From a virus: a stretch of DNA of 63,122 nucleotides. Numbering within the stretch: the first letter of the stretch is position 1; the number at the start of each line of letters is the position of its first letter. Positions 16,851 through 44,594 of this stretch are shown here, piece by piece. The notes beneath the pieces are model-generated. The model searched no databases. It worked only from the letters and a program-made list of their open reading frames with translations, and was not told the DNA's origin. Where the stretch lies: positions 1 through 63,122 of IMG/VR virus record IMGVR_UViG_3300032516_005551; one strand, 5' to 3'. The position numbers were made by a program, and so were the translations under genes.

Positions 16851-17215
16851 TGACTGACGAAGAGTTTGCAAATTGGTTGAGTGCTAAATTGGTTGAAATG
16901 GGGTCTGCCATAATGCAACACTATGACCCTTGTCGCATTAGATTGGGTTCTTGTAGAGCAGGTGAAGTAAACCCATGTTGCAATGCTATTACTGTTTTTG
17001 GACTAGGTCGTTGTAAATACTTGGATAAAAATGGTTGCACTGATCCTGATCCCAAACCAACTTGTAAACTGTGGTTGTGTCGAACTGCTATTGCTTCGAC
17101 TGATCCTGTGTGTGTCGAAACTCTTATGCTTTTGGAAAAGGTAGGGTTGTTGCATAAAATTGTATTACATCCTATTATCGGTGAACGTTACAGAGGAGCG
17201 GATTGGCAACCGTAG
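16850..17215 (+). CDS. Cys-rich small protein between the repeat proteins
   Basis: 121 residues. The ATG overlaps the previous stop (TAATG). About ten Cys residues lie in the central 70, including [18 protein letters not shown] and LWLC, spaced like a zinc cluster, or a YkgJ-type metal-binding domain. No membrane segment is visible. Its placement between two serine-rich repeat genes suggests it acts on or with them, for example as an oxidation or modification factor, but this is only context. Confidence 0.6.
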
Positions 17216-26824: not shown

Positions 26825-27188
26825 AAAACCGAAGGTTCTTTTCATGGACGACAGAAGTAAACGAATTCATTCTGCAATCGGGAAGTTTAAGAACTGTGAT
26901 CTAACCATAGTTACCAACGTCATCGAGTGTCTTCAATTTCTTTCGAACGAAGAATGGGATGTGGTTTTCTTGGACCATGATCTGGGTGGTCGGGAATTTA
27001 TGGATCCATCAAGTCCTTTTAGCGGGATGGAAGTGCTTAGGTATATTTCAAGAACTAGTTGGCCCATAGAAAAAAAGAAACCCAATTTTGTCATTCACTC
27101 CTCTAATACATTCGCTGCCATGGCAATGGAGGAGTATCTCAAAGAAATGAAATTCTCTGTGGTGAGAAGGAGATGGGAATATGGTTAA
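26808..27188 (+). CDS. Receiver-fold (cREC-like) small protein
   Basis: 126 residues from the ATG at 26808, inside the end of the kinase gene. VLFMDDRSKR near the N-terminus and WDVVFLDHDLGGREF in the middle match receiver-like domains with the LDHDL signature, called cyclic-phosphate-processing receivers, rather than ordinary response regulators. There is no output domain. It lies between a sugar-phosphate kinase and a nucleotidyltransferase, where the GDP-heptose pathway needs a phosphatase; a role in that step is speculation. Confidence 0.6.
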   Translation: MATTTRKPKVLFMDDRSKRIHSAIGKFKNCDLTIVTNVIECLQFLSNEEWDVVFLDHDLGGREFMDPSSPFSGMEVLRYISRTSWPIEKKKPNFVIHSSNTFAAMAMEEYLKEMKFSVVRRRWEYG

Positions 27189-27585
27189 GGTTGGGCTGGT
27201 AACTGGTGCATTTGATATCATCCATCCAGGGTATATCCGTTTATTCAAGGATGCCAAGCGGGTGTGTGATTACCTTATTGTTGCTCTCCAGGATGATCCA
27301 TCGTTGGAAAGACCGAAGACAAAATACAAACCGATCTTCTCCAAGGAAGAAAGGTTTGAGATCCTCATGTCCATTCGTTATGTGGATGAAGTGCGATTCT
27401 ACAACACAGAAGATGATTTGATGCTTCTTCTTTTGGAGATCAAACCCGATTCAAGGATCATGGGTACGGATCATTCTGGAAAAGTAGTAACTGGAAGGAA
27501 TGCGGCTCCGATCTATTATCATATCAGAAATCATAACTGGTCGGAAACAAGAGTCAGGAAATTATTATGCGAGGAGAGAAAATGA
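27181..27585 (+). CDS. Cytidylyltransferase-family nucleotidyltransferase
   Basis: 134 residues. GAFDIIHPGYIR at 9-20 is the HxGH nucleotide-binding motif of the HldE C-terminal, TagD and related families, but its second His is Tyr (HPGY). The C-terminal ETRVRK corresponds to the usual STxxR motif with the first residues changed. It would activate a sugar 1-phosphate or polyol phosphate with ATP or CTP. Placement after the HddA-like kinase suggests nucleotide-heptose synthesis. The changed residue leaves activity to be shown. It overlaps the previous gene by 8 bases. Confidence 0.7.
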   Translation: MVKVGLVTGAFDIIHPGYIRLFKDAKRVCDYLIVALQDDPSLERPKTKYKPIFSKEERFEILMSIRYVDEVRFYNTEDDLMLLLLEIKPDSRIMGTDHSGKVVTGRNAAPIYYHIRNHNWSETRVRKLLCEERK

Positions 27586-28493
27586 AGGTTCTATGCACTG
27601 GCGCAGCAGGATTTGTATGCAGTCATGTTGTTGATCTGCTTCTGAAAGGTGGTCATGAAGTATTGTGCATTGACGATCTATCTTCTGGACTTAGAAGCAA
27701 TCTCCCAAGGAAAGTTAATTTTGTAGAGATAAATGTTGCAAACTGGTATGATATCGTTTCTGAATTTGTGGATTTCAAACCAGAGGTAGTCATCCACATG
27801 GCTGCCCAGCCATCCATCTTCGAATCATTTGACAATCCAATTCGGGACGGTTATGTGAACGTAATGGGAACTCTGAACGTGATCCGGGCGGCTCAGAAAA
27901 TAGGGGCAGAAAGGCTAGTATTCTCTTCCACTTCTGCTGTATACATGGAACTCTACTCGGACCTTCCTACTACCGAAGAATGGCCGTGTCATCCAAATAC
28001 ACCTTATGGTATTTCAAAATTAGCGGCGGAGTCCTATGTAAGACTTCTGATGCCGGAGGGCGGAACCGTGTTGCGTTTTGGGAATGTCTATGGTGAGAGA
28101 CAGGTTCCACTTGGAGAAAACCAGGTTGTACCAAGAATGATACGGCATTTTGAGAAAGGCGATGATTTTTTCATTCATGGTGAAGGCACCCAACAACGAG
28201 ACCTGGTATACGTCGGCGACGTAGCGCGTGCTGTTGTTTTTGCAATGACTGGTCCTGTTGGTATTTATAATATCGCTTCTGGAAAAGCGGTGTCAATTAA
28301 TAAACTGGCCACTATGATTGAAGAGATTTATCAAGTACCTGGCTACAACTGGCAGTATGACGACAAGATCGATCCCAGAGTAAAGGCTGAATTGGATATT
28401 CGAAAGGCTATTCATGATTTGAATTGGCATCCCGGTATTGATCTTCAAGCTGGTTTATGCAAGACTGTTGAATGGTGGAAGGCACAGAAATGA
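27582..28493 (+). CDS. NDP-sugar epimerase/dehydratase (extended SDR)
   Basis: 303 residues from the ATG with GAGGAG upstream, overlapping the previous stop. NAD-binding GAAGFVCSH at 7-15, HMAAQP, SSTSAVY and YGISK give the complete SDR catalytic set; the C-terminal part has the GalE/WcaG-like NVYGERQ and QQRDLVYVGDVA. It epimerises or dehydrates a nucleotide sugar, possibly the nucleotide-heptose made by its neighbours. Note that the second Gly of GxxGxxG is changed to Cys (GFVC). Confidence 0.78.
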   Translation: MKVLCTGAAGFVCSHVVDLLLKGGHEVLCIDDLSSGLRSNLPRKVNFVEINVANWYDIVSEFVDFKPEVVIHMAAQPSIFESFDNPIRDGYVNVMGTLNVIRAAQKIGAERLVFSSTSAVYMELYSDLPTTEEWPCHPNTPYGISKLAAESYVRLLMPEGGTVLRFGNVYGERQVPLGENQVVPRMIRHFEKGDDFFIHGEGTQQRDLVYVGDVARAVVFAMTGPVGIYNIASGKAVSINKLATMIEEIYQVPGYNWQYDDKIDPRVKAELDIRKAIHDLNWHPGIDLQAGLCKTVEWWKAQK

Positions 28494-31303
28494 CACTCCG
28501 GGTCTTCATCTCTCCCAACTATCTTAATGAGAAGGAACACGTCGACCGTGGGGGCATTAAACAGGTTGTTCTCGCCGAGAATAAATATCTTGGTCAATTT
28601 GATGTTGAGTCGGTTGCCAACATTGAAGAAGCTCACGTGATCCAAAATCAGGGTTCGATGCAGACCTGGCGCAAGGGCGTTCCTGTAGTGAACTCCAGTC
28701 ATGGATTGTACTGGTCCCGCTATCCCTGGGGAGAGGGAACTCAGGAAGTCAACCGAGAACTTATGCAGGCAATGTCGATGGCAGTCGCACAGACCGCTCC
28801 TTCCGAGTGGGTAGCGAGATCCATTCGGCGTGGTGCTTTGATCTATCCAGAGGTGGTTTATCATGGAGTAGACGCGGATGAATTTCAACCCAGTCTTCAT
28901 CCGAGTGATTACGTTCTATACAATAAACTCCGACATGATTTTGTCAGTGATAGTAAACAAATGCAGGAAGTCGCAAAATTGCTTCCGAACGTACAGTTCC
29001 TTTCCACAATAGGGATCGCGACCCCAAACGTGAAAGTTGTCGGCGCGATGCCGTATGACCAGATGAAACTTCTGACTTCGGAGGCTGGAGTTTATCTCGC
29101 TACCACACGGGAGACTTTTGGGATAGGAACTCTTGAGGCCATGGCTTGCGGTGTGCCAGTTGCCGGATTTTCTTGGGGTGGAACCAAAGAGATAATAATA
29201 CAGGGAGAAACAGGGTACCTTGCTCCTCCCGGAAGATTCGACTTACTTGCAGATTGCATTAAACGCTGCATCGACGAACGCAAGCGACTGTCAGTGAATT
29301 GTGTGAACGATGTGCGCTTCCGCTGGAAATGGGAGAGCAGGATCCAGCAGTATGCCGATCTTTTCAAGGCTGTGTATTCAGACTGGTATGAAGATAGACC
29401 AAAAGTTTCCATCATTGTTACCGCTTACAATCTTGATCGGTATCTTCCCCAGTGCCTTGATTCTGTCAAGATTCAAACGATGAAAGATTGGGAATGCCTG
29501 GTAATAGATGATGCACAATTAACATCCACCCGGGAGATCGTGAACGATTATGCCAAAAAAGACAAGCGTTTCAAATACATCGCCACTCCTGAAAACCTCG
29601 GGTTATCCGGCGCAAGAAACTTTGGCTTTTCGAAAGCGAAAGGCCATTACATTCGTCATTTGGATGCTGATGATTGGCTTGGAGAAACTGCGCTCGAGGT
29701 AGAGTCTGGTGCTCTGGACGATGACCCATTTATTCACATTGCTTATGGTGCTCTTTGCATGGTTGAACAAGATGGTGTAATACCCATGGTACAAGGTTCT
29801 CCCAAACGGTGTGATTGGCCGAAGCCGAAATTCTCATGGATAGAGCAAATGGCGCACCTGAACCAGATCCCAAGTTGCGTAATGATGCGCAGGGAAGTTC
29901 TTCAAAGGTCTGGCGGGTACCGCGTTCGTAACAAACGCCAGGAGGATGCTGAATTCTGGTGCAGGGTGACTTCGCTTGGGTTCAGGGCCATGAAAGTAAC
30001 CGAGGCCATCACCTACTTCCACAGGCAAAGGAACGACAGCAAGGGGCAGATTGAGTGGGATGTGGATGGAAAAGAACCAGATTGGACCGCCTGGTTTCCG
30101 TGGAGTCTGGGCGCAAGAGATTATCGAGAAGGAACTGAATTACTTCGGAAATTTCATGGAGAACACCCTAACGCAGCCATCGTGCCATTCGGAGCACAGG
30201 GCATTTCCTCGGAAGGAAAGTTCTGGTATATCAATGATTTTTCTTACCCGCTGGTCAGCGTGATCATTACCTGTGGCCCGGGGCATAAAGAATATTTGAT
30301 CGATGCTTTGGATTCTGTGCAGGCCCAGACATATCCTGATTGGGAGTGCATCGTGGTCAACGATACTGGCGTGAAATGGGGTAGTTACATCCCGGGCGCA
30401 CCATGGGCAAAGGTTGTTAACATGGATGGCAACCAAGGTACAGCGGCAGCACGAAATGAAGGTTTCCAGCACAGCAATTCACGCTACATAATCTGGATGG
30501 ATGCTGATGATTATTGGTTGCCATGGTTCTTGGAGCGCATGGTAGCTTATGCGGAGCAGAACTTTGGGATCATCTATTCGGACATCATCATGGATGACGG
30601 GAAAGAGAAGAAGGTCTACAAGTATGGCGATTTGAAGTACGATGAAGTGCCATTCCACATGCAGTATGCCGGTTCATCCATCCTTATCCCATGGGAGATC
30701 GTCCACGCGGTCAATAACTTCAACGGCGGGTACGATATAGAAGCACCTGGGATGGAGGACTGGATTTGGCAGATCGCCTGCCATCATCTCGGCTTCTGTG
30801 CCTTCCATCTGCCTGAACCCCTCTTTGTATATAGGACGTTCACATCCACCAAAAGAGAGCGCGACTATGCTAAAATAGAGGATATCCGGGCGTACCTGGA
30901 TGTCAAGTGGAAAGATTATCGTAAAGAAGGGAAAAGACTCATGTGTAGTTGTACTGGGACGAGGAAAGTAACCAATAAACCAAACAGTATGATGACCGCC
31001 TCTGGTGATTTCGCCAAGAGTCTGAATCTTCCCGAAAACGCCAATGAGACCCAGATGGTATTGGTGGAGTATATGGGACCCATCGCCGAAACCTTCTCAA
31101 TTCGCTCACGTATTGATCGAGGTATAAATTATCGTTTTGGAAACAATCCTTTGCACAAGGAACGAACCACCTTCCTTGCAGATGCTCAAATATTGACTGC
31201 CATGGAGGGTGGAGATGGGAAACCTCTTTATCGCGTGAAGGGGATATCCGGACTGACAGAGAATCGAGATCCGACTAATATTGTTGGGGCTATCGTTCAA
31301 TGA
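28490..31303 (+). CDS. Three-domain glycosyltransferase with extra C-terminal domain
   Basis: 937 residues. Residues 1 to about 300 are a GT4/GT-B domain (TRETFGIGTLEAMACGVPVAG). About 302-580 is a GT2/GT-A domain (PKVSIIVTAYN, HLDADDW). About 585-815 is a second GT2 domain (VSVIITCGPG, WMDADDY). From residue 818 (MCSCTG) there is an unrelated domain of about 120 residues with RSRIDRGINYRFGN and DAQILTAM, like small stand-alone phage proteins; it could also be translated separately from ATG 30941. The fusion suggests an ordered polymerase adding at least two or three sugars. Confidence 0.82.
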   Translation: MTLRVFISPNYLNEKEHVDRGGIKQVVLAENKYLGQFDVESVANIEEAHVIQNQGSMQTWRKGVPVVNSSHGLYWSRYPWGEGTQEVNRELMQAMSMAVAQTAPSEWVARSIRRGALIYPEVVYHGVDADEFQPSLHPSDYVLYNKLRHDFVSDSKQMQEVAKLLPNVQFLSTIGIATPNVKVVGAMPYDQMKLLTSEAGVYLATTRETFGIGTLEAMACGVPVAGFSWGGTKEIIIQGETGYLAPPGRFDLLADCIKRCIDERKRLSVNCVNDVRFRWKWESRIQQYADLFKAVYSDWYEDRPKVSIIVTAYNLDRYLPQCLDSVKIQTMKDWECLVIDDAQLTSTREIVNDYAKKDKRFKYIATPENLGLSGARNFGFSKAKGHYIRHLDADDWLGETALEVESGALDDDPFIHIAYGALCMVEQDGVIPMVQGSPKRCDWPKPKFSWIEQMAHLNQIPSCVMMRREVLQRSGGYRVRNKRQEDAEFWCRVTSLGFRAMKVTEAITYFHRQRNDSKGQIEWDVDGKEPDWTAWFPWSLGARDYREGTELLRKFHGEHPNAAIVPFGAQGISSEGKFWYINDFSYPLVSVIITCGPGHKEYLIDALDSVQAQTYPDWECIVVNDTGVKWGSYIPGAPWAKVVNMDGNQGTAAARNEGFQHSNSRYIIWMDADDYWLPWFLERMVAYAEQNFGIIYSDIIMDDGKEKKVYKYGDLKYDEVPFHMQYAGSSILIPWEIVHAVNNFNGGYDIEAPGMEDWIWQIACHHLGFCAFHLPEPLFVYRTFTSTKRERDYAKIEDIRAYLDVKWKDYRKEGKRLMCSCTGTRKVTNKPNSMMTASGDFAKSLNLPENANETQMVLVEYMGPIAETFSIRSRIDRGINYRFGNNPLHKERTTFLADAQILTAMEGGDGKPLYRVKGISGLTENRDPTNIVGAIVQ

Positions 31304-31614
31304 CTCTCCTGGAATTCGCAATTCTGGGATTGGCTACCTGGCGTATATCTGCCCTGCTGTCAAAGGAAGCAGGGCCATTCGACGTTTTCAAACGGATAAG
31401 AGAGAAGGCGGGAATAACTCACGACGAGAATGATGACGTGTTCATGGTTCCCCACAATTTCTTCGCCGAATTACTGTCATGCGTCTGGTGTACTTCCATC
31501 TGGGTGGCGGCGTTCTGGGCGTGTTTCTTTGCAGTAACTCAGCAAATTTGCACAATTATTGCTACGATTTTCGCTTTGAGTGCGGTTGCTATTTTTGTGG
31601 ATCGTCTTTCTTAA
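31300..31614 (+). CDS. Small membrane protein, DUF1360-like
   Basis: 104 residues with an amphipathic start (LEFAILGLATWRISALL) and C-terminal hydrophobic segments with CVWCTSIWVAAFWACFF and TIIATIFALSAVAIF. The CxWC-x-siW pattern resembles DUF1360 proteins found in phages and spore-formers. It overlaps the previous gene by ATGA and converges with the DegT-like gene, sharing 26 bases at the 3' ends. It could anchor glycan enzymes or lipid carrier steps at the membrane; unproven. Confidence 0.55.
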   Translation: MTLLEFAILGLATWRISALLSKEAGPFDVFKRIREKAGITHDENDDVFMVPHNFFAELLSCVWCTSIWVAAFWACFFAVTQQICTIIATIFALSAVAIFVDRLS

Positions 31615-32665
31615 CCATTCCTCTCTGATCACAAACCACACTTATCACATATTTGACATCGGCACTGTTCATATTTTGATGGCAGGGAACATATAGATGG
31701 GTGTGGGAGATATGTTCCGCTACCGGGAACTTTCCAACACTTTGATAGCGCGGTTCTTCCAATGGGATGCAGGAGAAGAATTTTCTGCATTCAATCCCCG
31801 CCTGAAGTATATTTCTCATTGCGCCATCCCTGGCACTCTCTGATGAAAACTCAACCGGATACCCATGAGGAACAATTTCTTCTCTTTCCCGCTCATAAAA
31901 TCCACCCAATCCTTTCTGCATTGCAAGAAAGTTCTTTCTCCTTCTTGAAACATACTCATCAACATGATTCATCAGACAGATGCCAAGAACGGATTGAAGA
32001 CTGGTGAATCTGGCGTTGAACCCATAGTTTGTAAAATGGAATTTATTCATTGGATCTGTCGTGGTAGAACCATGTGCCCGGATGGACCGGCATAGACTGG
32101 CGAGCTCGGGATCATCAGTAACAATCGCTCCCCCCTCACCGGTCGATATTGTATGGGACGGGAAGAATGAATAAGTACCCATTTTCCCAAATGTACCCGC
32201 AGACTTACCACCCAATCTACTACCGAATGCTTCACATGCGTCCTCAATATCCGGATTTGTTGGTCCCTGCCGTCCCATCAAATCAGTTGAAAACACGATA
32301 GAATGAAGATAAGTGTACGGATGAATATAAGAAAGATCGACCGTCCAATCTTCTTTTACGTCTACAAAGACTACCTGTAGTCCGTTATACAATACCGAAT
32401 TCGGTTGGGCAATGAAAGTTAGGGCTGGGACTACCACACTTCTTGAGATCTTATAAACTGCCTTCATGGCTGCCACGGCAACGGCATCCGCCATGGTCCC
32501 ATTGGAAACAGCTATGCAGAATTTTGAGCCAACATAATTTGCGATCGCTTCCTCGAACTGCTCGATAAGATCAGTTTGTCCTATCTTTCCTGCCCTGAGA
32601 GCATTTTCCATCATGGGATAGGTTTCTTCCGGAATGTTTACTGCCGCCAGAGATACTTTATACAT
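31589..32665 (-). CDS. DegT/DnrJ-fold enzyme with His for Lys, likely sugar 3-dehydratase
   Basis: 358 residues from the ATG at 32665, next to the stop of the upstream gene. The PLP fold is clear: SNGTMAD at 54-60, IEDACEAFGSR near 140-150 (cofactor Asp) and SFFPSHTISTGEGG at 166-179. In aminotransferases the catalytic Lys occupies the place of His171. Lys-to-His is the diagnostic change of RfbH (E1) and ColD, which remove a 3-hydroxyl to make 3,6-dideoxy sugars. So this is more likely a dehydratase than an aminotransferase. E1 enzymes also need a C-terminal FeS cluster, not seen here, which favours the ColD type. Confidence 0.7.
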   Translation of the reverse strand: MYKVSLAAVNIPEETYPMMENALRAGKIGQTDLIEQFEEAIANYVGSKFCIAVSNGTMADAVAVAAMKAVYKISRSVVVPALTFIAQPNSVLYNGLQVVFVDVKEDWTVDLSYIHPYTYLHSIVFSTDLMGRQGPTNPDIEDACEAFGSRLGGKSAGTFGKMGTYSFFPSHTISTGEGGAIVTDDPELASLCRSIRAHGSTTTDPMNKFHFTNYGFNARFTSLQSVLGICLMNHVDEYVSRRRKNFLAMQKGLGGFYEREREEIVPHGYPVEFSSESARDGAMRNILQAGIECRKFFSCIPLEEPRYQSVGKFPVAEHISHTHLYVPCHQNMNSADVKYVISVVCDQRGMVKKDDPQK

Positions 32666-32666
32666 T

Positions 32667-33398
32667 TCACCACCTGCTGCCAGCGGTCGAAAGATAATTA
32701 TCTGTTCTCCAAACTCCCATGTGCCAGATGGGTTCTTTCTGTTCAAGAGAATCCTCTCCAAAACGCATGGGGATTGCGATCGTCGGTCCATCATGTTTAT
32801 AATAACGCTCATTACCAAGAAGTTCTGCGTTGCCGGGTTGATTCGGGGCACAAGACGGTATATCACCGTAAGCATCCCAGAAGCGCCTGTGATACAAATG
32901 GAAACCGATTGTACTCATGTAGGCGGTTGAACTTTTACTTTTATCCAGTCTCCACCAATGCAATCCGCCGCAATCCAACAGGTCTGCATGAACGTCAACC
33001 TCGTCTTTCTGGTTTGGTCCATTTGACCAGAAGGCAAGCCTGGCCATCCTCACGCATCCGATTTCCGGGTGTTTCAAAAGCAATGCCACGTCGGGAGTTA
33101 TGTCAATTTTGTGCTGGGGCATAAAGTCATCCAGGGCGACTACCCATACATCTCCGCCATGCCTGGCGCATGAGTTTACCATATCGGATAGGTTATCTGT
33201 GACTTCGACCGATGTTGGATAATCCTTGGTGAGCCTGAGATAATAATCTATGTCCTCCTGTGGACTGCCGCCATCTGCAATATGAAATTTTATTGGAGCA
33301 CCATACCCAACAAGTCCAATGATCATTTGAATGGTCATCACGGCATACCATGGACGTTTGTATGTGCAAATCCCGAACGTGAGCGGGGGGAGATCCAT
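32667..33398 (-). CDS. Family 2-like glycosyltransferase
   Basis: 243 residues. The N-terminus LTFGICTYKRP and HIADGGSPQ follow the GT-A beginning and VVALDDFMP gives the metal-binding acidic site. It lies between the DegT-like gene and a methyltransferase-like gene in the leftward sugar operon, with a one-base overlap to the latter. Aromatic residues dominate the C-terminal half. It is similar in style to the transferase at 24496. Confidence 0.68.
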   Translation of the reverse strand: MDLPPLTFGICTYKRPWYAVMTIQMIIGLVGYGAPIKFHIADGGSPQEDIDYYLRLTKDYPTSVEVTDNLSDMVNSCARHGGDVWVVALDDFMPQHKIDITPDVALLLKHPEIGCVRMARLAFWSNGPNQKDEVDVHADLLDCGGLHWWRLDKSKSSTAYMSTIGFHLYHRRFWDAYGDIPSCAPNQPGNAELLGNERYYKHDGPTIAIPMRFGEDSLEQKEPIWHMGVWRTDNYLSTAGSRW

Positions 33399-33976
33399 TA
33401 TTTCACTTCCTTTTTGAATATAACCAGGTCCTTAAATTGGGTCATTTTATAGTTGTATCCAGTGGATAAGTGGATTTCAACGAATGTTTTTATTTTTTCC
33501 CATGCGGCTGATTTTTCGTAGAATAGAATTTCCCCTGCCACAGAAAGTTTCTTTGTCATTGTGTTTAACACACCTTCAACAGCATTGCCTGGGTAATCTG
33601 GGTTTAGTACCTGTTCAGAAATTTCCCCGAGGTGGAATAAAGAAATGAAATCAAACCTAGGTAAAATATTTGCGTTAATCAGATGAATATCCCCGAAGTC
33701 AACCATGTATTTTCTGGCCAACCATGGATTTTCCGTGGCGAGATTTATGTATTCTTTTACCTCAGACGGAGTTATGGAAATGGAACGCACGAAAATGTTG
33801 CTCTGTTCCACCGCCCATAGACCGACCTTGTGATGAAGACCAGGCCCCATGTGAAAGATGACAGCCGTGTTCATTTTTTCAAGACCCAACCCAGAAAGAT
33901 ATTCAATAAATTGTGTGTCACACGGACACACATCACTGTATTCCCATCCCACTTCAACGATTGGAATATTTGTCAT
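33398..33976 (-). CDS. Methyltransferase-like protein, unassigned
   Basis: 192 residues from the ATG at 33976 (ATGA overlap with the PIG-L stop; GGAGAAAAG upstream). TAVIFHMGPGLHH near residue 35 looks like a degenerate SAM-binding loop, and FDFISLFHLGEIS plus AGEILFYEKS suggest the later strands of a class I methyltransferase. The motifs are weak, so a sugar-binding or inactive relative is equally possible. It belongs to a four-gene leftward sugar operon. Confidence 0.45.
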   Translation of the reverse strand: MTNIPIVEVGWEYSDVCPCDTQFIEYLSGLGLEKMNTAVIFHMGPGLHHKVGLWAVEQSNIFVRSISITPSEVKEYINLATENPWLARKYMVDFGDIHLINANILPRFDFISLFHLGEISEQVLNPDYPGNAVEGVLNTMTKKLSVAGEILFYEKSAAWEKIKTFVEIHLSTGYNYKMTQFKDLVIFKKEVK

Positions 33977-34641
33977 GTTTCTTTTCTCCACAAAGATACC
34001 CCTTTATTCTTTGCCCAATATTCTTTTATCTTCTGAGCAGTTATTTCAGGAGTTGGATATAAATCCTGGGAAACATATTTTCGCATAGCATCAATCCAAT
34101 GCGATAGCCCTTCCGAAGTTATATCCGCTGTAGTTCCAGTTAATCCAAGCACAGCCGGATCCAGGGCATCCGGAAGATATTCCACATAGGGAAAATCTAC
34201 GAAATATGTCAGTGATATTCCCAGATCCTCGCTGGCCTTTCGAATAATAACATGATCCACATGGCTTCCAACGGCCAGAGGGCACATCAGGATATCGTCA
34301 GATTCCAGTTGCATTTTTAATAGATGTGTTATTGCCAGAGCTGTTCTGTCTTCCGGGTGAACCGTGGAAAAAACCGTTGAGTAAAGTTTATTCCCCTCAA
34401 AATCCTTTCTATCGAGACCATCGAGGAAACAGTAGTGAATCGGTTTCGCTCCCAATATCTTCAGTGCTTCTTTATCCTCTTTCATTCGTATGGTGTATTT
34501 CTCACTGGATGTTTCTCTGGGAATTGCACACATGAAAGTGAAAACCTCAACATCCATTCCCGCATTCACCTGATCGTATATTAATCCTCCACAGGATAAG
34601 ACTGCATCATCCAGGTGGGGGGAAAGGTAAATAGTCTTCAT
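33973..34641 (-). CDS. PIG-L family N-acetyl-sugar deacetylase
   Basis: 222 residues. SPHLDDAVLSCGG at 7-19 is the zinc-binding P-H-x-D-D motif, and GSHVDHV near 150 supplies the third ligand (HxxH). Family members remove acetyl groups from N-acetylglucosamine-type moieties in lipid-linked or small-molecule sugars (LpxC-unrelated). It is the first gene of the leftward operon. Together with the acyltransferase at 24014, the phage could both add and remove acyl groups on its glycans. Confidence 0.8.
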   Translation of the reverse strand: MKTIYLSPHLDDAVLSCGGLIYDQVNAGMDVEVFTFMCAIPRETSSEKYTIRMKEDKEALKILGAKPIHYCFLDGLDRKDFEGNKLYSTVFSTVHPEDRTALAITHLLKMQLESDDILMCPLAVGSHVDHVIIRKASEDLGISLTYFVDFPYVEYLPDALDPAVLGLTGTTADITSEGLSHWIDAMRKYVSQDLYPTPEITAQKIKEYWAKNKGVSLWRKET

Positions 34642-34679: not shown

Positions 34680-34985
34680 ATGGATTTTCCTCTTTCGTGT
34701 CCTGGTTGTGCACATGAAAACTGGGTAGACCTGGATAGTCCTCAGGTCTGGAGAGTGAACAGTCTTCTCATAGTTGAAGGATACATTTGTGAGATTTGTA
34801 AAAAACCAATCCCGTTCTTCTTTTACACCAGGTCCATGGAAGACGCGTTAATAAAATTGAAGTATTCAGGACCCCATCATTCGTCTTTCCGCTATCATTT
34901 TCAAAAAGCTCTCCGGAAAGCATTGGGAATACGGGAGAAATATAATGGCTCGATCAGACACGGTAACGAAACTCGCCCTCGATGA
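34680..34985 (+). CDS. Zinc-ribbon small protein
   Basis: 101 residues. CPGC near residue 7 and CEIC near 38 form a zinc ribbon. No ribosome site precedes the ATG; the -10 box at 34668 makes a leaderless message likely. The end overlaps the next gene by 41 bases. Function unknown. Confidence 0.55.
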   Translation: MDFPLSCPGCAHENWVDLDSPQVWRVNSLLIVEGYICEICKKPIPFFFYTRSMEDALIKLKYSGPHHSSFRYHFQKALRKALGIREKYNGSIRHGNETRPR

Positions 34986-36162
34986 ATTTGCCCAGATAAT
35001 AGGTCTAAATCCAATGGCGTTCAATGGATTTTCCTCATCCTTGTTCCCGAACAATGTATGCGGAGATATTTTCTTTCAATACGATTGGCAACATTCTGAT
35101 CGAATTGGGAGAGAGACCATCGCCCAGGCAATCAATCAAGCCGAGATGGAGATGGAAGCAGAGGCAGGTTTCATGTTGATGCCAACATGGACAACCGAAG
35201 AACGCCTTGGATATCCTCGTCCTGGCATTCCCGGTGTGTTTGGTCTGGATGGTCGCAATACACGCGGTCTTCCAAAAAGTGTCGAGGCAAAAAAGGGTTT
35301 GATCATCTCGGGAGGTATACAGGAAAAGACTCTGCTTGGAAACGCATCTGCGATCGTCAGATCCGATGTTGACGGAGATGGGTACGCCGAAACAGCAACC
35401 GTCACTACCGCAGTTACATTCACCGACACGAACGAGGTTCGTATTTACTATGCCAGTGAAGACGGCGACGACGCTTACGAGATCCGGCCAGCCAAAGTTA
35501 CCATCTCTGGAGGTTTTGCAACCATTGTGTTTAAGTCCTGGCAGGTTCCTGTTCTCGGAAAACTGGAACAGTTGGATGCTCCTGTTCTGGACGCTGCGGT
35601 GGCCGCGAACTATGAAACAACAGTAGACGTATACCGGGTTCGAAATGATCCCAGCACTCAACTTCAGTTCATGTGGGAAAGTTCGGATTTGAACTGTTGT
35701 GGAACATGCGTAGCCTGTCAATTTGGAACGCAGGCAGGTTGTTTCCATTTGCGCGACCCCAGGCGCGGAGTTTTGGTTCCAACTCCCGGTTCCTGGAATG
35801 CAACAGATCTTGCATTTGATAGTGCGGAGTTTAGTGTTTGCCGCGACCCGGACCAGATTCGATTATGGTATTATTCCGGATGGAAGGATGGAACAGTAAA
35901 ACGACCATACGTGGAAATGTCGAACTACTGGAAGTTCGCCGTGGCTGTGTTCGCGATCTCCAAGTTCGAACGTGCAGTATGTGGATGTTCCAACGTCAAT
36001 CAATTCGTTGAGAAGTGGCGTCGTGATGCAGCTTTCCACTCGATGACCGAAGGAGGTTTTCAAGTAACTGCTGAAATGATGTCTAATAAACTTGGAACAA
36101 GTCTTGGAGCAATCTACGCATATAGGCAGATTCACAGGAATGGAGTAAGGATAATAAAATAG
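34945..36162 (+). CDS. Probable head-tail connector or structural protein
   Basis: 405 residues with ACGGGAGAAA upstream. The N-terminal 100 or so residues are helical; a beta-rich middle contains SDVDGDGYAETATV, an EF-hand-like calcium loop also common in adhesins; a later Cys cluster (LNCCGTCVACQFG) may bind metal. It opens the tail operon after the inverted sugar genes, where connector proteins are expected. The function is inferred from place only. Confidence 0.5.
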   Translation: MARSDTVTKLALDEFAQIIGLNPMAFNGFSSSLFPNNVCGDIFFQYDWQHSDRIGRETIAQAINQAEMEMEAEAGFMLMPTWTTEERLGYPRPGIPGVFGLDGRNTRGLPKSVEAKKGLIISGGIQEKTLLGNASAIVRSDVDGDGYAETATVTTAVTFTDTNEVRIYYASEDGDDAYEIRPAKVTISGGFATIVFKSWQVPVLGKLEQLDAPVLDAAVAANYETTVDVYRVRNDPSTQLQFMWESSDLNCCGTCVACQFGTQAGCFHLRDPRRGVLVPTPGSWNATDLAFDSAEFSVCRDPDQIRLWYYSGWKDGTVKRPYVEMSNYWKFAVAVFAISKFERAVCGCSNVNQFVEKWRRDAAFHSMTEGGFQVTAEMMSNKLGTSLGAIYAYRQIHRNGVRIIK

Positions 36163-36176: not shown

Positions 36177-36461
36177 ATGGAACAAGTAACCCATATTGAC
36201 GAACTTGGCAGAAAATATCGGGCGTTTTCAAACGGAGAAGGTTCCATCATTATCATAGGACCACCCGAAAGTTTATTTGAATATTTACCTCTGCCAGAAC
36301 CATTTGCAACACGCCTGCATAATGTTCTTTACGAACGAGGAATATTTGATTACAAAACAGCTTCAAGAGGACAGGCACTTGTCGGCGCTTTGCAAGAGGC
36401 TTTGCTTGTTGATGTCCAAAAATTACTCGAGGCCTACTTTCGAAATGAGCAAGGAGGATAA
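36177..36461 (+). CDS. Small hypothetical protein in the tail operon
   Basis: 94 residues, no ribosome site, ATG 6 bases after a -10 box. The sequence is mixed alpha/beta with a helical C-terminus (LVGALQEALLVDVQKLLEAYF). It ends 5 bases before the tail tube gene. It may be a minor connector protein; not recognised. Confidence 0.5.
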   Translation: MEQVTHIDELGRKYRAFSNGEGSIIIIGPPESLFEYLPLPEPFATRLHNVLYERGIFDYKTASRGQALVGALQEALLVDVQKLLEAYFRNEQGG

Positions 36462-36466
36462 ATCCA

Positions 36467-37969
36467 ATGACAGATATTAAGGCTTTAACAGGAATTAACC
36501 AGCGAGTCTGGTACGTTGAGGGAGGTGTGCACCCCACACATCCACCCGTCCTATTAACCATCGGGAAATTTTCTGGTGATCCATCCCAGAAGACCGGGGA
36601 TGCGAAGAAAATTGCTGCACCCGACCCGAACAACTTCAATCGGGATATCCAGGTTGGAACGGTTCCTGGAACTGCGGACCGGGCAACTCTAGCGGTTGCC
36701 ATTCGGAGTACAGCACAGAAATCTGTGTTGATCGGATGGAAAAACAGGAAATGCCGGGTGGATATTTACGCCCTGTCCGGAAAATGCGGAAATCCGCAAG
36801 ACTTCACCGAAGGTGGAGAAAAATGGATCTACTTCCCGGACGGGCAGATTTCAGGTCACGCGTATGAAGGTTTTGGTGCATTTGGATTGGATGAATCCAA
36901 AGAAACAAACGAAACCGTCGACATGACCGCAGAGGAATACTATGAGTTTCTATACATGGGACAAGTCCAGGTCGGTGCTTCGTCTACCGTAAGAGAAATA
37001 TGGACGGTGGATATTTATCAGGGTAGCGATTGTGAAGACTGCCCCGATCCTTGCTCTCGCGTGCTCTGTTCCATGGCTGGTGCTTCTGCGACTCCTGGTA
37101 CCCAACCGCTCCTATTGTATACAGCGGATTCTGGTTTGACCTGGACAACCGACACCATCACGACCCTTTTCTCAAACGAGACGATCGCAGATGGAGAAAT
37201 GATTGGAGATAATATTGTCTATATCTCCAACACATCCAACAGTATCCACTATACAGATGTTCACCTGGTTTATAAAAACACGAACACCTGGAGCGAAGTT
37301 ACCAGCGGATTCGTCGCGGCAAAGGGTCCTAACGCGATCTGGAGTATAGATCCAAGACATACCTGGATCGTTGGTGATGGTGGATATATTTACTTTGCAT
37401 CCAACTACAAAACTGGCGTCGTTATAAAGAACTATGGTGTTACAACCACCCAGAAGTTGAATGATGTGCACGCAATCGATGTTGATAACATTCTTGCGTG
37501 CGGAGATGCAAACGCTGTCGTCTATTCAGCCGACTCCGGTGAAACCTGGGCTTCAGTAACCGGCCCCGCTGTGGGCGTGAATCTGGGCACCTGCTGGATG
37601 TGGTCTGCTGATATATGGTTTGTTGGAGAGGGAGCTGGTGGAACAGGTAAACTGTGGTTGACCGTGGATCAAGGTACAACCTGGACACAGGTCGCTCTTC
37701 CTGCTTCATACGTGCAGATCGACAAGATCAAATTCATCAGTGATGCTGAGGGTTATCTTAGTGCTCGTACTGCTGGTCAGTCCTTTATTCTGCGAACTAT
37801 TACAGCCGGGAATGAATGGGTTGTACTTCCTCAGGGAAAGACCAGTGTATCCATTGACAACACGAAGTTGACCGACCTTGACATCTGTTCGAAATACAGC
37901 AACACCGTTTTTGCCAGTGGTCTGGCCGACAATGGTACCGCAGGCATCATCCTCAAGATGACTGCATAA
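36467..37969 (+). CDS. Major tail tube protein with C-terminal Asp-box beta-propeller
   Basis: 500 residues. Residues 1 to about 200 look like a tail tube subunit (beta-rich, VDMTAEEYYEFLY, REIWTVDIYQ). A Cys-rich linker (CEDCPDPCSRVLC) leads into about 280 residues with Asp-box repeats: YTADSGLTWTT, YSADSGETWAS and LTVDQGTTWTQ, the S/T-x-D-x-G-x-T-W signature of sialidase- and Ycf48-like propellers. The propeller would stud the tail surface and could bind glycans or host proteins. It lies immediately before the tail chaperone and tape measure. Confidence 0.72.
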   Translation: MTDIKALTGINQRVWYVEGGVHPTHPPVLLTIGKFSGDPSQKTGDAKKIAAPDPNNFNRDIQVGTVPGTADRATLAVAIRSTAQKSVLIGWKNRKCRVDIYALSGKCGNPQDFTEGGEKWIYFPDGQISGHAYEGFGAFGLDESKETNETVDMTAEEYYEFLYMGQVQVGASSTVREIWTVDIYQGSDCEDCPDPCSRVLCSMAGASATPGTQPLLLYTADSGLTWTTDTITTLFSNETIADGEMIGDNIVYISNTSNSIHYTDVHLVYKNTNTWSEVTSGFVAAKGPNAIWSIDPRHTWIVGDGGYIYFASNYKTGVVIKNYGVTTTQKLNDVHAIDVDNILACGDANAVVYSADSGETWASVTGPAVGVNLGTCWMWSADIWFVGEGAGGTGKLWLTVDQGTTWTQVALPASYVQIDKIKFISDAEGYLSARTAGQSFILRTITAGNEWVVLPQGKTSVSIDNTKLTDLDICSKYSNTVFASGLADNGTAGIILKMTA

Positions 37970-38006: not shown

Positions 38007-38543
38007 ATGAAAGATGATATGGAAGTGGTTAAGGCCGTCGAAGATGCTCAAATCCCCCGGGGCAACACCATAACATTAAGCACAGGTGTTGTCCTGAGGG
38101 GGAAGCAGGTTCCCCCGCTGGTTCTTATCAAGATCATGGCGGCTTTCCCGAGACCCAAGATCCCAACCTGGATAAGTCCAACCATGGGACGGGAGATGGA
38201 AAATCCGGATGACCCTGATTACATAGACCGTGTAAAATCATGGAAGATAGAATCTGCCAGTATAACTTTGACCGCATTGATCCTTTTGGGAACAGAATTA
38301 GTCAGTATCCCCAAAAAGATTTCTGGGCCAGATGGGAAAGAATGGTTGGAAGAATATCAGGTGTTGGGAATACCGATGTCTCCAGAGAATAAGAATTGGC
38401 GATATCTGACCTGGATAACATTCAAAGCAGCGCCCACGGTCGGGGATCTCGATCTTATCAAGGAGGTGGTGGGCAGACTTTCCGGGATCTCGGAAGCCAA
38501 AGTCGAGGCCGCCGAACAGTTTCCTGGGAGTAAGCAGGAATGA
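38007..38543 (+). CDS. Tail assembly chaperone (gpG-like)
   Basis: 178 residues, located between tail tube and tape measure as in most siphoviruses. It has a hydrophobic stretch (SASITLTALILLG) and a mixed charged C-terminus. Chaperones of this kind hold the tape measure during tail assembly, usually also as a longer frameshifted form. The downstream frame from 38410 to 38802 is open without a usable start, so a frameshift product is expected here. Confidence 0.65.
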   Translation: MKDDMEVVKAVEDAQIPRGNTITLSTGVVLRGKQVPPLVLIKIMAAFPRPKIPTWISPTMGREMENPDDPDYIDRVKSWKIESASITLTALILLGTELVSIPKKISGPDGKEWLEEYQVLGIPMSPENKNWRYLTWITFKAAPTVGDLDLIKEVVGRLSGISEAKVEAAEQFPGSKQE

Positions 38544-38802
38544 TGAGATAGAGACTCCTGCTACGAAACTAGAGTTAGAACACGGGATAAGCTCGAACCT
38601 TTGGATGAGATCGCTGGCTCCGGGGCTTATCCCGATTTATGAAGAGCATACGACCAGGATAGAACGGGGTATTGGCCTGAAAGATTGGGGCAATATGCCC
38701 GGGGACGAAAAAGCAATGCTTGTCGCCCTTAGACGAACCGCAATGGCTATGAAGAACTTGCAAGCCGAAGCAGAATTAAAAGAAAACAAGAAGGTTAAGT
38801 AG
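38410..38802 (+). CDS. Frameshift extension of the tail chaperone (gpT-like)
   Basis: This frame is +1 (or -2) relative to 38007-38543 and stays open from 38410 to the stop at 38802. No ribosome site or ATG lies near its beginning; the first ATG is at 38605, well inside. It ends 7 bases before the tape measure. A TTT-C at 38520-38523 would let Phe-tRNA slip +1 from UUU to UUC, giving a fusion of about 264 residues. The helical, charged extension (IYEEHTTRIERGIG, LQAEAELKENKK) suits a gpT-like domain. The slip position is inferred. Confidence 0.55.
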
Positions 38803-38809: not shown

Positions 38810-40996
38810 ATGCCTATTCCTGCCGCAATTGTAACCCTGATGTTCGTTGTTGAAGGCGTACTTGATTTTACCAAGGACGTTAATACAGTCCATGGATCGC
38901 TGGATAAACTTAGAGCTTCGCTTTCGGACAACATCTTTACAGATGCGGTCAAAGGGATAACCAATTCCTTTTCTGAATTTGGGGATAAACTGTGGGATAT
39001 TGCCTCTGTCGCCATCGGGGTATTGTTAAGGGACGCATTTAACTGGTTGTTGGAAACTCTAAAAGAAATCATAGCATCTGCTTTTGAGGCAGGTGCAGCA
39101 TTTCAATTGGTTGAAATGCGTTTGAAGGGATTGAATTTACAGGCTGCCATTGATTCCGGGTTAAGTTATGCCGATGCCATGAAAGCATCCATAGATGTAA
39201 CAAAAGAACAACTTGACTGGATCATGAAGTTGGCTGCAATTACCCCATATGATGCAGAGGATATTGCCAAAACCTTCACCATGGCAACTGCATTTGGATT
39301 CAATGCTACTGCTGCAAAAGAACTCACGGAAAGTATCCTTGACTTTACCGCTGCAATGGGGTTGGGAAGCCAGGAGCAACAACGAATTATCGTTAACTTT
39401 GGACAGATGATCCAGAGAGGAAAGATCACCACCCGGGAAATGAACGATCTGGCCAGGGGTTCGTTGCTTCCTCTGGCGGATGTATTGAAGCGCGTTGTAG
39501 AGAATTCAAAGGGAGCGTTTGCGAGTGTCGCAGATTTAACCGCAGCGATCTCGAAACCCGGCGGAGGAGTTGATCCACAATTATTCATAGATGCCTTCAA
39601 TGAAATGGTGAACAGCGAAGAGAGATTTTCTGGCGCGGCTGTTCGAATGGCTCATACGTTCGCTGGTTCCACGGAAAACATAAGACAATCTTTGAGAGAT
39701 GTGATTGGTTTCTTTATCCTTCTACCAGGGTTTCTGGATCCAGTTGGTCAGAGACTTGGCGATATCATGGATGAAGTGGGGAACAGATGGGGGGAAATAA
39801 TTGATGCTGCCGGACGGGTGGGTGCCGCGCTCGCCCCTATCATCAACGGAATTTTGGACTTATTTTTGCCAGGCGCCGGAACCATAGTAGACAGTGTGGT
39901 CGGCGGTTTGGATTCTATCGCTAATTGGTTGACAGATAATAAAGAAAACATTCTTGGATTCTTTCGCAGGGTTTCTGACTTCCTGTTTGGAACAGAAGCA
40001 GATGAGAGCGGTAATTTCGGAACAGTAGGAGCACTTCAGAGCATAAAGAATTGGATTGATGCAAACGGTCCACAGGTACTCGGATTCTTTACCGGGATAG
40101 GAACCACGATCCAAAAAAAGATCGTCGCGTTATGGGAAGAAAAATTAAAACCGGCATACGATGATCTTTCGAACTGGGTGACTGAAAATAAAGGGCCAAT
40201 TAATGAATTCTTCAGTGCTCTTGGAGATATCGTCTCGGATGTAATCAATGGGCTTCTGGGTATCAAAAGTGGTCATAGTCCAGCGACCATTCATGGCGTA
40301 TTGGACAAGATATTAGAGGTTATGAAATGGGTCACGGATAATAAAGAAAGCATCGCCAGTTTTGTTGAATCATGGGTAAGATTCTGGATTTTTGCCGAGT
40401 TGATAAAATTCCTCTTAAGCGAGATTCTGGGGTTTGTCGGAGCATTACTCGCTCTTGATGTAGGTGCATGGGGACTTCTCTGGTTAGGTATTAAAATGAC
40501 TTTTGGAATAATAAAGGAAACTGTTGCATTTATTTGGGAAACTATAAGCAAAATAATGGGGGCTAAAATGGGACCGTATTTTGGTGTTCCTATTCCGACC
40601 TGGGGACTACCAACTGTTCCTCCAGTGGTTACTCCTCCTCCGGCCACTCCTCCCGTAGTTAATCCTCCCGTAGTTAATCCTCCCGGGGTTAATCCTCCCG
40701 GGGTTACTCCAATGACTCCAATGACTCCTTTTGTTCCTCCAACAATTGTCCCTCAAGTTGCAATGGCAGAGGGACCTGGTATCCTGGACAACCTGAAAAC
40801 AATTGCTGATTATTTTACTGGAGATGAATTTCAACTAAGTATTTCGGTACCACAGAACGTCTCTGGTAATACAGTATCATCAGTAACATCTTCTACAACT
40901 AATGCAACCAGCAACTATAATTTGACTATCAACACCATGGCATCAAAAGAAAACATAATCCAGGATTATGCCTCGTTGAAGGCAATTGCTGTGTAA
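38810..40996 (+). CDS. Tape measure protein
   Basis: 728 residues. The first half is helical with the segment QRGKITTREMNDLARG near residue 200, typical of tape measure proteins. Several hydrophobic helices around residues 525-570 may be membrane-active. A Pro-rich stretch with repeated VVNPP and GVNPP units follows, then a Ser/Thr/Asn-rich end. At about 0.15 nm per residue the tail would be roughly 110 nm, so this is a siphovirus. It follows the frameshifted chaperone directly. Confidence 0.85.
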   Translation: MPIPAAIVTLMFVVEGVLDFTKDVNTVHGSLDKLRASLSDNIFTDAVKGITNSFSEFGDKLWDIASVAIGVLLRDAFNWLLETLKEIIASAFEAGAAFQLVEMRLKGLNLQAAIDSGLSYADAMKASIDVTKEQLDWIMKLAAITPYDAEDIAKTFTMATAFGFNATAAKELTESILDFTAAMGLGSQEQQRIIVNFGQMIQRGKITTREMNDLARGSLLPLADVLKRVVENSKGAFASVADLTAAISKPGGGVDPQLFIDAFNEMVNSEERFSGAAVRMAHTFAGSTENIRQSLRDVIGFFILLPGFLDPVGQRLGDIMDEVGNRWGEIIDAAGRVGAALAPIINGILDLFLPGAGTIVDSVVGGLDSIANWLTDNKENILGFFRRVSDFLFGTEADESGNFGTVGALQSIKNWIDANGPQVLGFFTGIGTTIQKKIVALWEEKLKPAYDDLSNWVTENKGPINEFFSALGDIVSDVINGLLGIKSGHSPATIHGVLDKILEVMKWVTDNKESIASFVESWVRFWIFAELIKFLLSEILGFVGALLALDVGAWGLLWLGIKMTFGIIKETVAFIWETISKIMGAKMGPYFGVPIPTWGLPTVPPVVTPPPATPPVVNPPVVNPPGVNPPGVTPMTPMTPFVPPTIVPQVAMAEGPGILDNLKTIADYFTGDEFQLSISVPQNVSGNTVSSVTSSTTNATSNYNLTINTMASKENIIQDYASLKAIAV

Positions 40997-41004: not shown

Positions 41005-43470
41005 ATGACTGCTACCTTGAAAGTCCTGGTTCCCGAACCGGGCGTGAACTATATAATAAACCCGAGTTTCCGGCATGATACGACAGAATGGAGTCCGGTT
41101 TCCTGTACTGCTACGCGTGTGCTTGATTATGCTCTTTATGGTATATCATCCTGCAAAGTGGTTACAAATGGAGGGGCGGGAGCAACTCGACAGGGGATTT
41201 ACTACCGTGCCAACTCTCTATTGGGAATAAGCACCCCAGTTACCATGACCGCGTATGTACGCGGAAGTGGAAGAGTGCACATCAGGATGATAGAGGGACT
41301 TGGCAAGGAATGGGTCGGCGAGGGGACGACTTTATACCCAGATCGTTGGATAAGGTTGGAAGTTACAGGATACACAACCGGAAGCAATGATGTTCGCTTG
41401 TATGTTGAAACAGATGGGATTCAGGCAAATCCGATCACTTTTTGGATGACTGCTGCACAGAGGGAAAACAATTATTATTCTACGACATTCATTGATGGAG
41501 ATCAACCTGGATGTTTCTGGGCCATGGTCAATTCTGGTAGTATTTCAACAAGAAAAGCAAATGTTACTTTAGGTGGCAGGTGGGTTACTCTAGCCGGACC
41601 ATGCCGAGAGAATAATGATATTTACATAACCGTGCTTGGAGGTCTTGGAATGCCTCCCCTTCGACATAATATTCAATCCTGGGCCAGAACACCCGGTTCT
41701 TATTTTCAGAATACGAAGGTTTTGGATAGGGCTGTTACTATCGTATTCCATGCGAAAAATGAAGATATCCGCGTTTCCCGTAATCCTGATACAAGTCCAT
41801 TACAGATCTTGCGGCAACAACTAATCGATGTATTCAAACCCAATACTGCCATGGGGAACGATGCTCTTCTATTCTCATATCAAGATGGAGAAAGAGAGAT
41901 GTTCCTGCAAATGCGTTACGAAGCTGGTCTTGAAGGATCCTGGGATATTCGCAACAAATGGACGGATTCGATACCAGTACGTTTTCTGGTTGTAGATCCC
42001 ATGTTCTATGAGAACAATAAACATTCACAGGCATTGAATTTCAAGAGTGTTTTTCGAACTAATTCTATTATTGGCAGGGTGAATGGAGAATATAAAAATC
42101 TAAATTTTGGGATGTCCTCTGGTATAAGTAAGATGGCTATCGGTAAATCAGGATATTTGTATGCGGCTGGAGGTTATACGACGATCAACAATTCCGCTGG
42201 GGCAGTTGATCCTCGTGTACCCTGTAAGTATATTTCCTACTACGACGGAGAGAAATGGAACAAAATGGGAACCGGAGAGGGAGACGATCATGCTCACAAT
42301 CCGGCGATTGCTCCGAATGGTGATGTGTACGTGGTGGGCGCTTTCACATCTATTGGGGGTGTAGCAGCCAATAGAATAGCGAAGTGGAACGGTACGACCT
42401 GGAGCGCACTATCAACGGGTCTTGACGATACCGCTTACGGCATAAAAATTTCTTCCAACGGTGATGTATATGTTGGCGGAGATTTCCACACAGCAGGAGG
42501 AATCGCCTGCTGGCATATTGCAAGATGGGATGGACTTTCTTGGAATCCGATCGGGGCTTATGCGGGATTAAATAATATTGTAAGATCAATTGCAATCAGT
42601 CCCAATGGCGAGGATATATATGTAACCGGTGCTTTTAACGATCAATATTCTCTGTCTGGATCAGCTCTTTTGTGTGTTGCTAAATATAGTCGATCAACAA
42701 ACCTTTTCTCTGCCATGGGAAATGGATTTGATAATTACGGTAACATAATTAAATTGGCACCATCTGGTGCTTTATACGTAGGAGGAGATTTTGATCTTTC
42801 TGGAACAATAACAGTAAATCGTATTGCCAAGTGGAATGGAAGTTCATGGATCGGTATGGGAGAAGGTCTTTCAGGAGGGGTTGTATATTCATTAGGTATA
42901 TCAGAGAATGAAAACATTGTTGCCGTTGGAACATTTACTTCTTCCGGAGATATAAATTGTAATAAAATAGCCTTTTGGAATGGTAGTTCGTGGTCAAACC
43001 TTGATTTTGCCTTTTCTGATTCTGCCTATTATATTCTTGATGTGGTCATTATTGGAGAGGATATGTATCTGAGTGGTAATTGGTACGGATACCATTTATC
43101 TTCTTCAATAAATACGATTACTAATTATGGAACAGCCGAGGCGTTTCCTGTCATTTATATATTCGGTCCGGGTAATTTGCGCTGGATAGAGAATCAGACA
43201 ACCGAAAAACGAATATTTATGGATTTGACAATTCTTGATGATGAAGAAATATTAATTGATTTTGGTAAGAAAACTATTGTAAGCACAATTCGCGGAGATC
43301 TAATTTATTCCATTCTCCCAGGATCAGATTTTGGAGATTTCTCTCTCACCCCCGGCGATAATAAACTGGCTGTGTTTATGACCGATGATGTCCAGTCGCT
43401 CATGTATATTTATCATCAGCCACAACACTGGTCGGCCAGCGCAAGTGTAAACCCACAGGCGTTGTCATGA
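41005..43470 (+). CDS. Distal tail protein with inserted beta-propeller
   Basis: 821 residues. Residues 1 to about 190 resemble a carbohydrate-binding jelly roll (INPSFRHDTTEW, typical of CBM-like phage domains). About 190-365 and about 700-821 look like the two halves of a distal tail (Dit) protein, the latter with PVIYIFGPGNLRW and LTPGDNKL. Between them lies an insert of about 320 residues with repeated VYVGGDF, NRIAKWNG and SWSxLG units, a delta-60-type propeller. So a surface-exposed propeller replaces a loop of the tail ring. Confidence 0.72.
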   Translation: MTATLKVLVPEPGVNYIINPSFRHDTTEWSPVSCTATRVLDYALYGISSCKVVTNGGAGATRQGIYYRANSLLGISTPVTMTAYVRGSGRVHIRMIEGLGKEWVGEGTTLYPDRWIRLEVTGYTTGSNDVRLYVETDGIQANPITFWMTAAQRENNYYSTTFIDGDQPGCFWAMVNSGSISTRKANVTLGGRWVTLAGPCRENNDIYITVLGGLGMPPLRHNIQSWARTPGSYFQNTKVLDRAVTIVFHAKNEDIRVSRNPDTSPLQILRQQLIDVFKPNTAMGNDALLFSYQDGEREMFLQMRYEAGLEGSWDIRNKWTDSIPVRFLVVDPMFYENNKHSQALNFKSVFRTNSIIGRVNGEYKNLNFGMSSGISKMAIGKSGYLYAAGGYTTINNSAGAVDPRVPCKYISYYDGEKWNKMGTGEGDDHAHNPAIAPNGDVYVVGAFTSIGGVAANRIAKWNGTTWSALSTGLDDTAYGIKISSNGDVYVGGDFHTAGGIACWHIARWDGLSWNPIGAYAGLNNIVRSIAISPNGEDIYVTGAFNDQYSLSGSALLCVAKYSRSTNLFSAMGNGFDNYGNIIKLAPSGALYVGGDFDLSGTITVNRIAKWNGSSWIGMGEGLSGGVVYSLGISENENIVAVGTFTSSGDINCNKIAFWNGSSWSNLDFAFSDSAYYILDVVIIGEDMYLSGNWYGYHLSSSINTITNYGTAEAFPVIYIFGPGNLRWIENQTTEKRIFMDLTILDDEEILIDFGKKTIVSTIRGDLIYSILPGSDFGDFSLTPGDNKLAVFMTDDVQSLMYIYHQPQHWSASASVNPQALS

Positions 43471-44594
43471 GTGCTTCCTATGAATTTTGGCTTACTGATG
43501 ATGCTGGAATAAGAATAACTCTTCTGAAGAACTATTCCTATGCGAGTTATTCAAGATCAACGCGCGGGTATGGAATAATTCAATTAGGTATTCCATTGGA
43601 GGAATACCTTGCTTTTGTGCCGGTACTATTTCAACCCGATTGGCGCATTGATGTATATAGAAGTCCCGAACAGGGAATTCCCAAGCGGAGAGAAGGTTCT
43701 TATTTCCTCCGGAAATTCCGTATTTATGACAGGGAAACAGACGCTGTAAGAATGATACAGTTCTTTGGGCGCTCCCCCATTGATATCTTAAGAAGATGGA
43801 GCGTGTGTTTAGATTTTGGGGGAAGCCCACATGTTGTAACGGATTACAAGACAACAGATTACATTGATGATATGATGAAATCACTCGTCAATCGTCTTTT
43901 CATTACCGGAGGAAATGTCGCTCCTGCTGGAGAATTCTCGGTGGATGGTGATACAAGTTTGGGGCCGATTATTACTCGTTCATATCTTGGGAAGAACATT
44001 CTTGATGTTCTGACTGACCTAAAAGCAACATCTTTTAGTCTCAACCAGGAAGACTCAACCAATCGAAAGATATATTTTGACTGTGTTGAAGGACCAGGCA
44101 AGGTCAACGGATTCGGATATATCTTCAGGACATTCGCGAATATCAGAGGAGTGGATCGGACAAAATCATTAGTGTTCTCAATGGAAAACGGGAATATGAG
44201 AACCCCGGAATACTATGAGGACTATCTTGATCAGTCGACAATAGTTCAGGTTGGTACGACAACAGTGACCAGTCCCGATTCTACTCTTTCTCGTTGGAAT
44301 AATATATTGAAATATAAGAACCATAATCCTACCGATACCGGGGACGAAACGTCTATGGCAAACCAGATCTTGAATGAAGAAAAGAAAGACATTTCCATGG
44401 GTGCTTATTTTCTGAGCAATTCTGGATCATCTAACCAACCACGATCTCTATACGGAGTAGACTGGGACCTTGGGGATCTTCTGCCTGTTAATTATGCGGG
44501 TAAAAACATGAATGTTGAAGTTGAAATCGTGTGGGTGTCTATAGATGAGATTGGACGAGAAAATATTGTTGGGTCCAACAGGGTAGGTGTTTAA
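43467..44594 (+). CDS. Tail hub protein, ReqiPepy6 gp37-like
   Basis: 375 residues overlapping the distal tail gene by ATGA. The beta-rich sequence beginning YEFWLTDDAGIRIT, with WRIDVYRSPEQG and ILDVLTDLKATSF, matches the pattern of siphovirus gp37-like/tail-hub proteins that cap the tail tube and hold the tail tip. It follows distal tail, as in the usual order. No lytic domain is visible. Confidence 0.65.
   Translation: MSASYEFWLTDDAGIRITLLKNYSYASYSRSTRGYGIIQLGIPLEEYLAFVPVLFQPDWRIDVYRSPEQGIPKRREGSYFLRKFRIYDRETDAVRMIQFFGRSPIDILRRWSVCLDFGGSPHVVTDYKTTDYIDDMMKSLVNRLFITGGNVAPAGEFSVDGDTSLGPIITRSYLGKNILDVLTDLKATSFSLNQEDSTNRKIYFDCVEGPGKVNGFGYIFRTFANIRGVDRTKSLVFSMENGNMRTPEYYEDYLDQSTIVQVGTTTVTSPDSTLSRWNNILKYKNHNPTDTGDETSMANQILNEEKKDISMGAYFLSNSGSSNQPRSLYGVDWDLGDLLPVNYAGKNMNVEVEIVWVSIDEIGRENIVGSNRVGV

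Follow-up and report, generated by a model that had tools for sequence, protein, structure and literature searches.

Major tail proteins that carry small Ig-like or carbohydrate-binding add-ons are already known. In lambda gpV, T5 pb6 and YSD1_22, an N-terminal tube domain is followed by a C-terminal Ig-like (Big_1/Big_2) domain on the tube exterior (PMC8718954). In the 936 lactococcal phages, a carbohydrate-binding module, TpeX, is placed on the major tail protein, of which it is the less conserved part, and host-cell binding has been shown for a TpeX (PMC6669499). Here we describe a 500-amino acid protein encoded at 36467–37969 (+) of an uncultured virus record (63,122 bases, analysed over its whole length and called the window hereafter), which we conclude with high confidence is a propeller-bearing major tail protein of a siphovirus. 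Like gpV, pb6 and YSD1_22, it has a beta domain appended C-terminally to a tube domain, but the appended domain is a propeller of ~300 amino acids that is longer than the tube domain, is carried by every copy, and follows a Cys-rich hinge. The propeller and TpeX are alike as add-on modules fused to a major tail protein, surface binding being a property of TpeX. However, TpeX is added through a programmed frameshift to a fraction of the copies and is poorly conserved, whereas the propeller lies in a continuous reading frame, is present in every copy, and is the better conserved half of its protein.

What is new, then, is an obligate, conserved beta-propeller, and we found no propeller-bearing tail tube in the open-access literature that we searched. 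The add-on exceeds the tube domain in both size and conservation, and occurs in a diverse clade without an INPHARED isolate. The tube-propeller protein allows side-on adhesion or a covalent sheath to be put to the test, and its gene can be used as a marker for the clade.

Domain organization of the tube-propeller protein

The protein is read from a single ATG reading frame without interruption, with an AAGGAGG ribosome site shortly upstream. Residues 1–187 (36467–37027) make up the predicted tail-tube domain, residues 188–197 (37028–37057) the hinge, and residues 198–500 (37058–37966) the propeller, all on the + strand. A propeller encoded as a separate gene, or forming a separate minor tail component, was rejected computationally, since both halves lie in one ORF throughout.

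The tube half matched no family in the Pfam, PHROG or NCBIfam libraries and had no PDB sequence match; the sequence divergence of tube proteins is often too great for family matching. A first AlphaFold run with 25 close relatives resolved the propeller and left the tube half unresolved, and only after the family had been widened to diverse members, giving an 86-sequence alignment, was the tube half resolved as well (mean pLDDT 84.8 over residues 1–204). The model is a tail-tube beta-sandwich with one helix. Foldseek matches in the PDB were overwhelmingly tubes or tube-fold proteins, from phages as well as from contractile injection systems, with a best E of 6e-6; they include CIS/PVC/AFP tubes, 80alpha, NF5, monocin, lambda gpV, SPP1, Hcp and T5 pb6, and many of the matches in BFVD are annotated phage tail-tube proteins. 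The TM-scores were moderate, at ~0.45–0.53 of the query and 0.5–0.69 of most targets, and are not decisive alone. Together with the gene position described below, the predicted fold supports the original reading of the N-terminal part as a tail-tube protein, and these computations did not return the contrary result, an N-terminal part unrelated to tubes.

The Cys-rich hinge that had been proposed between the domains is real, with three cysteines in the pattern C189-x2-C192-x3-C196, followed by C201 in a non-conserved column. Of the hinge cysteines, C189 and C192 are shared by 94 of 95 aligned relatives, which also have C96 and C107 in the tube half, while a divergent copy (L205) has kept the fusion and lacks all four. 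In an extracellular virion protein, these four residues could form a metal (zinc) site, or disulfides that tie the hinge to the tube.

Three Asp boxes had been claimed for the C-terminal half, and three strict [ST]xDxGxTW boxes were indeed found, at residues 219 (TADSGLTW, 37121–37144), 354 (SADSGETW, 37526–37549) and 399 (TVDQGTTW, 37661–37684), followed by a degenerate fourth at residue 444 (TITAGNEW, 37796–37819). Residue shuffling gave an expectation of 0.0014 strict boxes per protein, and none of 5000 shuffles contained three. Throughout the tube-propeller family the boxes fall in the same four alignment columns. The AlphaFold model of this half is all-strand, with pLDDT mostly ~90 over residues 250–420 and lower after residue 450, and the combination of repeated Asp boxes with a multi-blade all-beta fold identifies an Asp-box propeller of the Ycf48/Vps10 type. 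Its profile matches Ycf48 structures in the PDB (E 8e-9), Pfam PSII_BNR was found in 25 of 25 close members, and its sequence relatives are Ycf48 and the Vps10/sortilin-type Asp-box propellers. The C-terminal domain is this propeller, and a Big_1/Big_2 Ig-like domain is absent from it. While the profile and the Asp boxes resemble those of the photosystem II assembly factor Ycf48/HCF136 and of Vps10/sortilin, the protein described here is a structural phage fusion with no sign of a photosystem role.

The propeller had also been described as sialidase-type, and this label should be dropped, since the arginine triad of sialidases (GH33/34/83) is not conserved in the family alignment: only R443 is highly conserved, and R440 occurs in 60%. 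If the propeller were a sialidase or another glycosidase, cleaving sugars of the host surface all along the tail, this would agree with the frequent occurrence of Asp-box propellers in glycosidases and with a weak profile similarity to GH74 xyloglucanase (E 0.025). We nevertheless regard such an activity as extremely unlikely, as there is a single strongly conserved arginine and no conserved acidic set that would suit a catalytic site, and the closest profile matches are to the non-enzymatic Ycf48; with its catalytic residues missing, the enzyme reading was rejected.

When the full model was compared with BFVD, the best match was a viral protein of 497 amino acids, A0A1P8DJ39, which also matches the tube domain alone and therefore probably shares the two-domain design, although the two proteins are only 16–17% identical.

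Gene neighbourhood in the tail module

The window carries a siphovirus gene set, including terminase, tape measure, Dit, Gp37-like proteins and a GH25-C39 endolysin. Upstream of the tube-propeller gene lie a conserved 405-amino acid protein without a family match, probably the head-tail connector or adaptor (34945–36162, +), which is syntenic in 28 of 30 loci, the window among them, and a conserved gene of 94 amino acids which, by gene order, takes the tail-terminator position (36177–36461, +). Downstream follow a putative tail assembly chaperone "G" part (38007–38543, +), assigned from its position and the conserved frameshift arrangement after it, and its "T" extension in the +1 frame (38520–38802, +), with an in-frame UUU_C candidate slip site at 38520–38523. 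The next genes encode a tape measure protein of 728 amino acids (38810–40996, +; Pfam TMP_3 E 3e-16, PHROG tape measure), a Dit-like distal tail protein into which a second propeller of the Rax2/DUF5122 type is inserted (41005–43470, +; Pfam/PHROG-type family matches), and a Gp37-like or tail-associated protein (43467–44594, +; weak Pfam match, PHROG minor tail E 3e-7). The first ~170 residues of the Dit-like protein resemble a carbohydrate-binding module by eye, with no match in Pfam.

Read across close relatives and the 30 loci, the order is connector (~405 amino acids), a gene of 94–140 amino acids, the tube-propeller gene, a chaperone of ~180 amino acids, tape measure, and Dit where recognisable. 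In most relatives, a stretch of 85–100 amino acids after the chaperone is open in the +1 frame, and 82 of 90 have an in-frame UUU_C followed by at least 78 open codons in the +1 frame; UUU_U occurs in several of the remaining eight. The sequence context of the slip site is often UCC_UUU_CGN, which we take to resemble the site of the +1 shift reported for influenza PA-X. The arrangement is of the G/GT type known for tail chaperones (reviewed in PMC5009743), with a predicted +1 shift, whereas that of lambda is −1.

The tube-propeller gene stands directly upstream of the G/GT chaperone pair and the tape measure gene, that is, in the canonical position of a major tail protein, which is also the upstream neighbour of the G/GT chaperones in lambda. 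The tube fold also occurs in other tail-module proteins, and some copies in the three relatives with tandem genes (see below) may be minor, both of which would agree with a terminator or tip-proximal ring rather than the main tube subunit. Such a minor role is very improbable for the window protein, as it is the sole candidate of its kind between connector and chaperones, in the window as in most relatives.

Distribution and conservation of the two halves

Both domains were found together in more than 90 related contigs of uncultured viruses, from IMG/VR and a few MAGs. Searches with the tube half alone gave 25 contigs in the clade of the window and then 22 in a second clade, and when the newly found contigs of the second of these searches were read through, all of them continued into the propeller. 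The fusion is universal in the clade, occurring in every complete member seen. By contrast, no relative was found among the isolated phages in INPHARED, which were searched with the protein in five versions and with two genes from its neighbourhood, one partial match (E 0.3) being disregarded.

Three relatives carry two tandem tube-propeller copies (L100:2342–4615, L194:2688–4661, and L195:3494–4993 and 4998–6494). In L100 and L194, the first copy bears an extra C-terminal concanavalin/LamG lectin-like domain (Laminin_G_3 E 7e-9 and 4e-15).

A first genome scan for host-associated relatives gave no match. Later matches came from contigs binned into MAGs that carry the labels proteobacterium, Gemmatimonadetes and Anaerolineae, and among further genomes of the class of the Anaerolineae MAG 2 of 297 had a match, compared with 0/273 and 0/297 genomes in two other groups and 0/399 in a phylum-wide sample. 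Since phage contigs can be mis-binned, these MAG matches are too weak to name a host.

Over 95 sequences, mean identity is 41% in the propeller and 32% in the tube half, and the propeller is the more similar half in 91% of pairs. Synonymous codon differences exceed amino acid differences in nearly all close pairs, usually several-fold and in both halves, and judging from these counts both domains are under purifying selection. Therefore, the propeller is not a fast-evolving receptor head, a reading that we rejected. In some close pairs it is the propeller that differs more, and it may have diversified locally there. For example, the tube halves of L221 and L224 differ by one amino acid and their propellers by 19, with many synonymous changes in both, a contrast that may reflect recombination.

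The main rival of the adhesive role proposed below is structural: the propellers might pack on adjacent subunits or rings and act as a covalent sheath that stiffens or protects the tube, with no outside ligand. This would fit a propeller that is under purifying selection and more conserved than the tube half, whose length is near-constant and whose loss was never seen among the relatives, as well as the four cysteines of hinge and tube shared by 94 of 95 sequences, and there is a known extra domain, YSD1 domain2, that enlarges ring contacts (PMC8718954). On the other hand, the lectin-like domains on the tandem copies suggest adhesion rather than packing, and the Ig-like domains at the C termini of the T5 and YSD1 proteins stick out loosely (PMC8718954). 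We consider such armour a possible but doubtful explanation.

Copy number and possible functions of a proposed propeller coat

Alongside the features computed directly (the fusion, the tube fold, the type of propeller, the order of the genes, the occurrence throughout the clade and purifying selection), we propose as most likely that residues 1–187 would stack as hexameric rings into the tail tube, and that each subunit would display a non-catalytic Asp-box propeller outside it through the short Cys-rich hinge, outward display being assumed by analogy with lambda, T5 and YSD1. The length of the lambda tape measure served as the basis for estimating ring and copy numbers. Scaled in this way, the tape measure of 728 amino acids corresponds to ~27 rings of six, so that the tail would wear a continuous, permanent coat of ~160 propellers. 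The "hundreds of propellers" originally predicted are thus probably too many for the window phage, although relatives with tape measures of up to ~1390 amino acids would reach ~300 copies.

The likeliest role of such a coat would be weak, multivalent and reversible adhesion to a conserved ligand of the host surface or matrix, which would keep the virion near cells until the tail tip engages. A glycan is the favoured ligand, and glycan binding is plausible. The LamG domains on the tandem copies of L100 and L194 and the second propeller in Dit give a hint of adhesion at the sequence level, and TpeX of the lactococcal phages would be a precedent for adhesion by a coat; unlike TpeX, the propeller is highly conserved, which would fit a structural role too. 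For the whole chain, from tube fusion through outward coat to weak multivalent binding of a conserved ligand on the surface, we see the chances as evenly balanced. As a tentative extension, on balance rather doubtful, the clade-wide covalent propeller sheath might bind a single ligand that is conserved and widely shared (or the virion's own glycans), with attachment along the whole tail and not at the tip alone.

Alternatively, the propeller might be a scaffold for glycosylation, in which the phage's own multi-domain glycosyltransferase adds sugars that shield the tail. In the window (28472–31303), as in 22 of the 29 relatives examined, a GT1-GT2-GT2 protein is encoded upstream of the tail genes and could possibly serve virion or surface glycosylation. 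However, such enzymes could instead modify capsid proteins, DNA or host glycans, and a scaffold role seems improbable to us compared with an adhesive coat.

Several other genes of the window are related to sugars or surfaces. The GT1-GT2-GT2 gene often adjoins a DUF1360-like gene (31300–31614 in the window). Sugar-metabolism blocks at 10850–14300 and 23094–34641 comprise a PseB-like dehydratase, a nucleotide-sugar epimerase, glycosyltransferases and an aminotransferase-like gene, and a low-complexity protein of 710 amino acids (17203–19335) matches Ser-rich adhesin models, probably through its composition.
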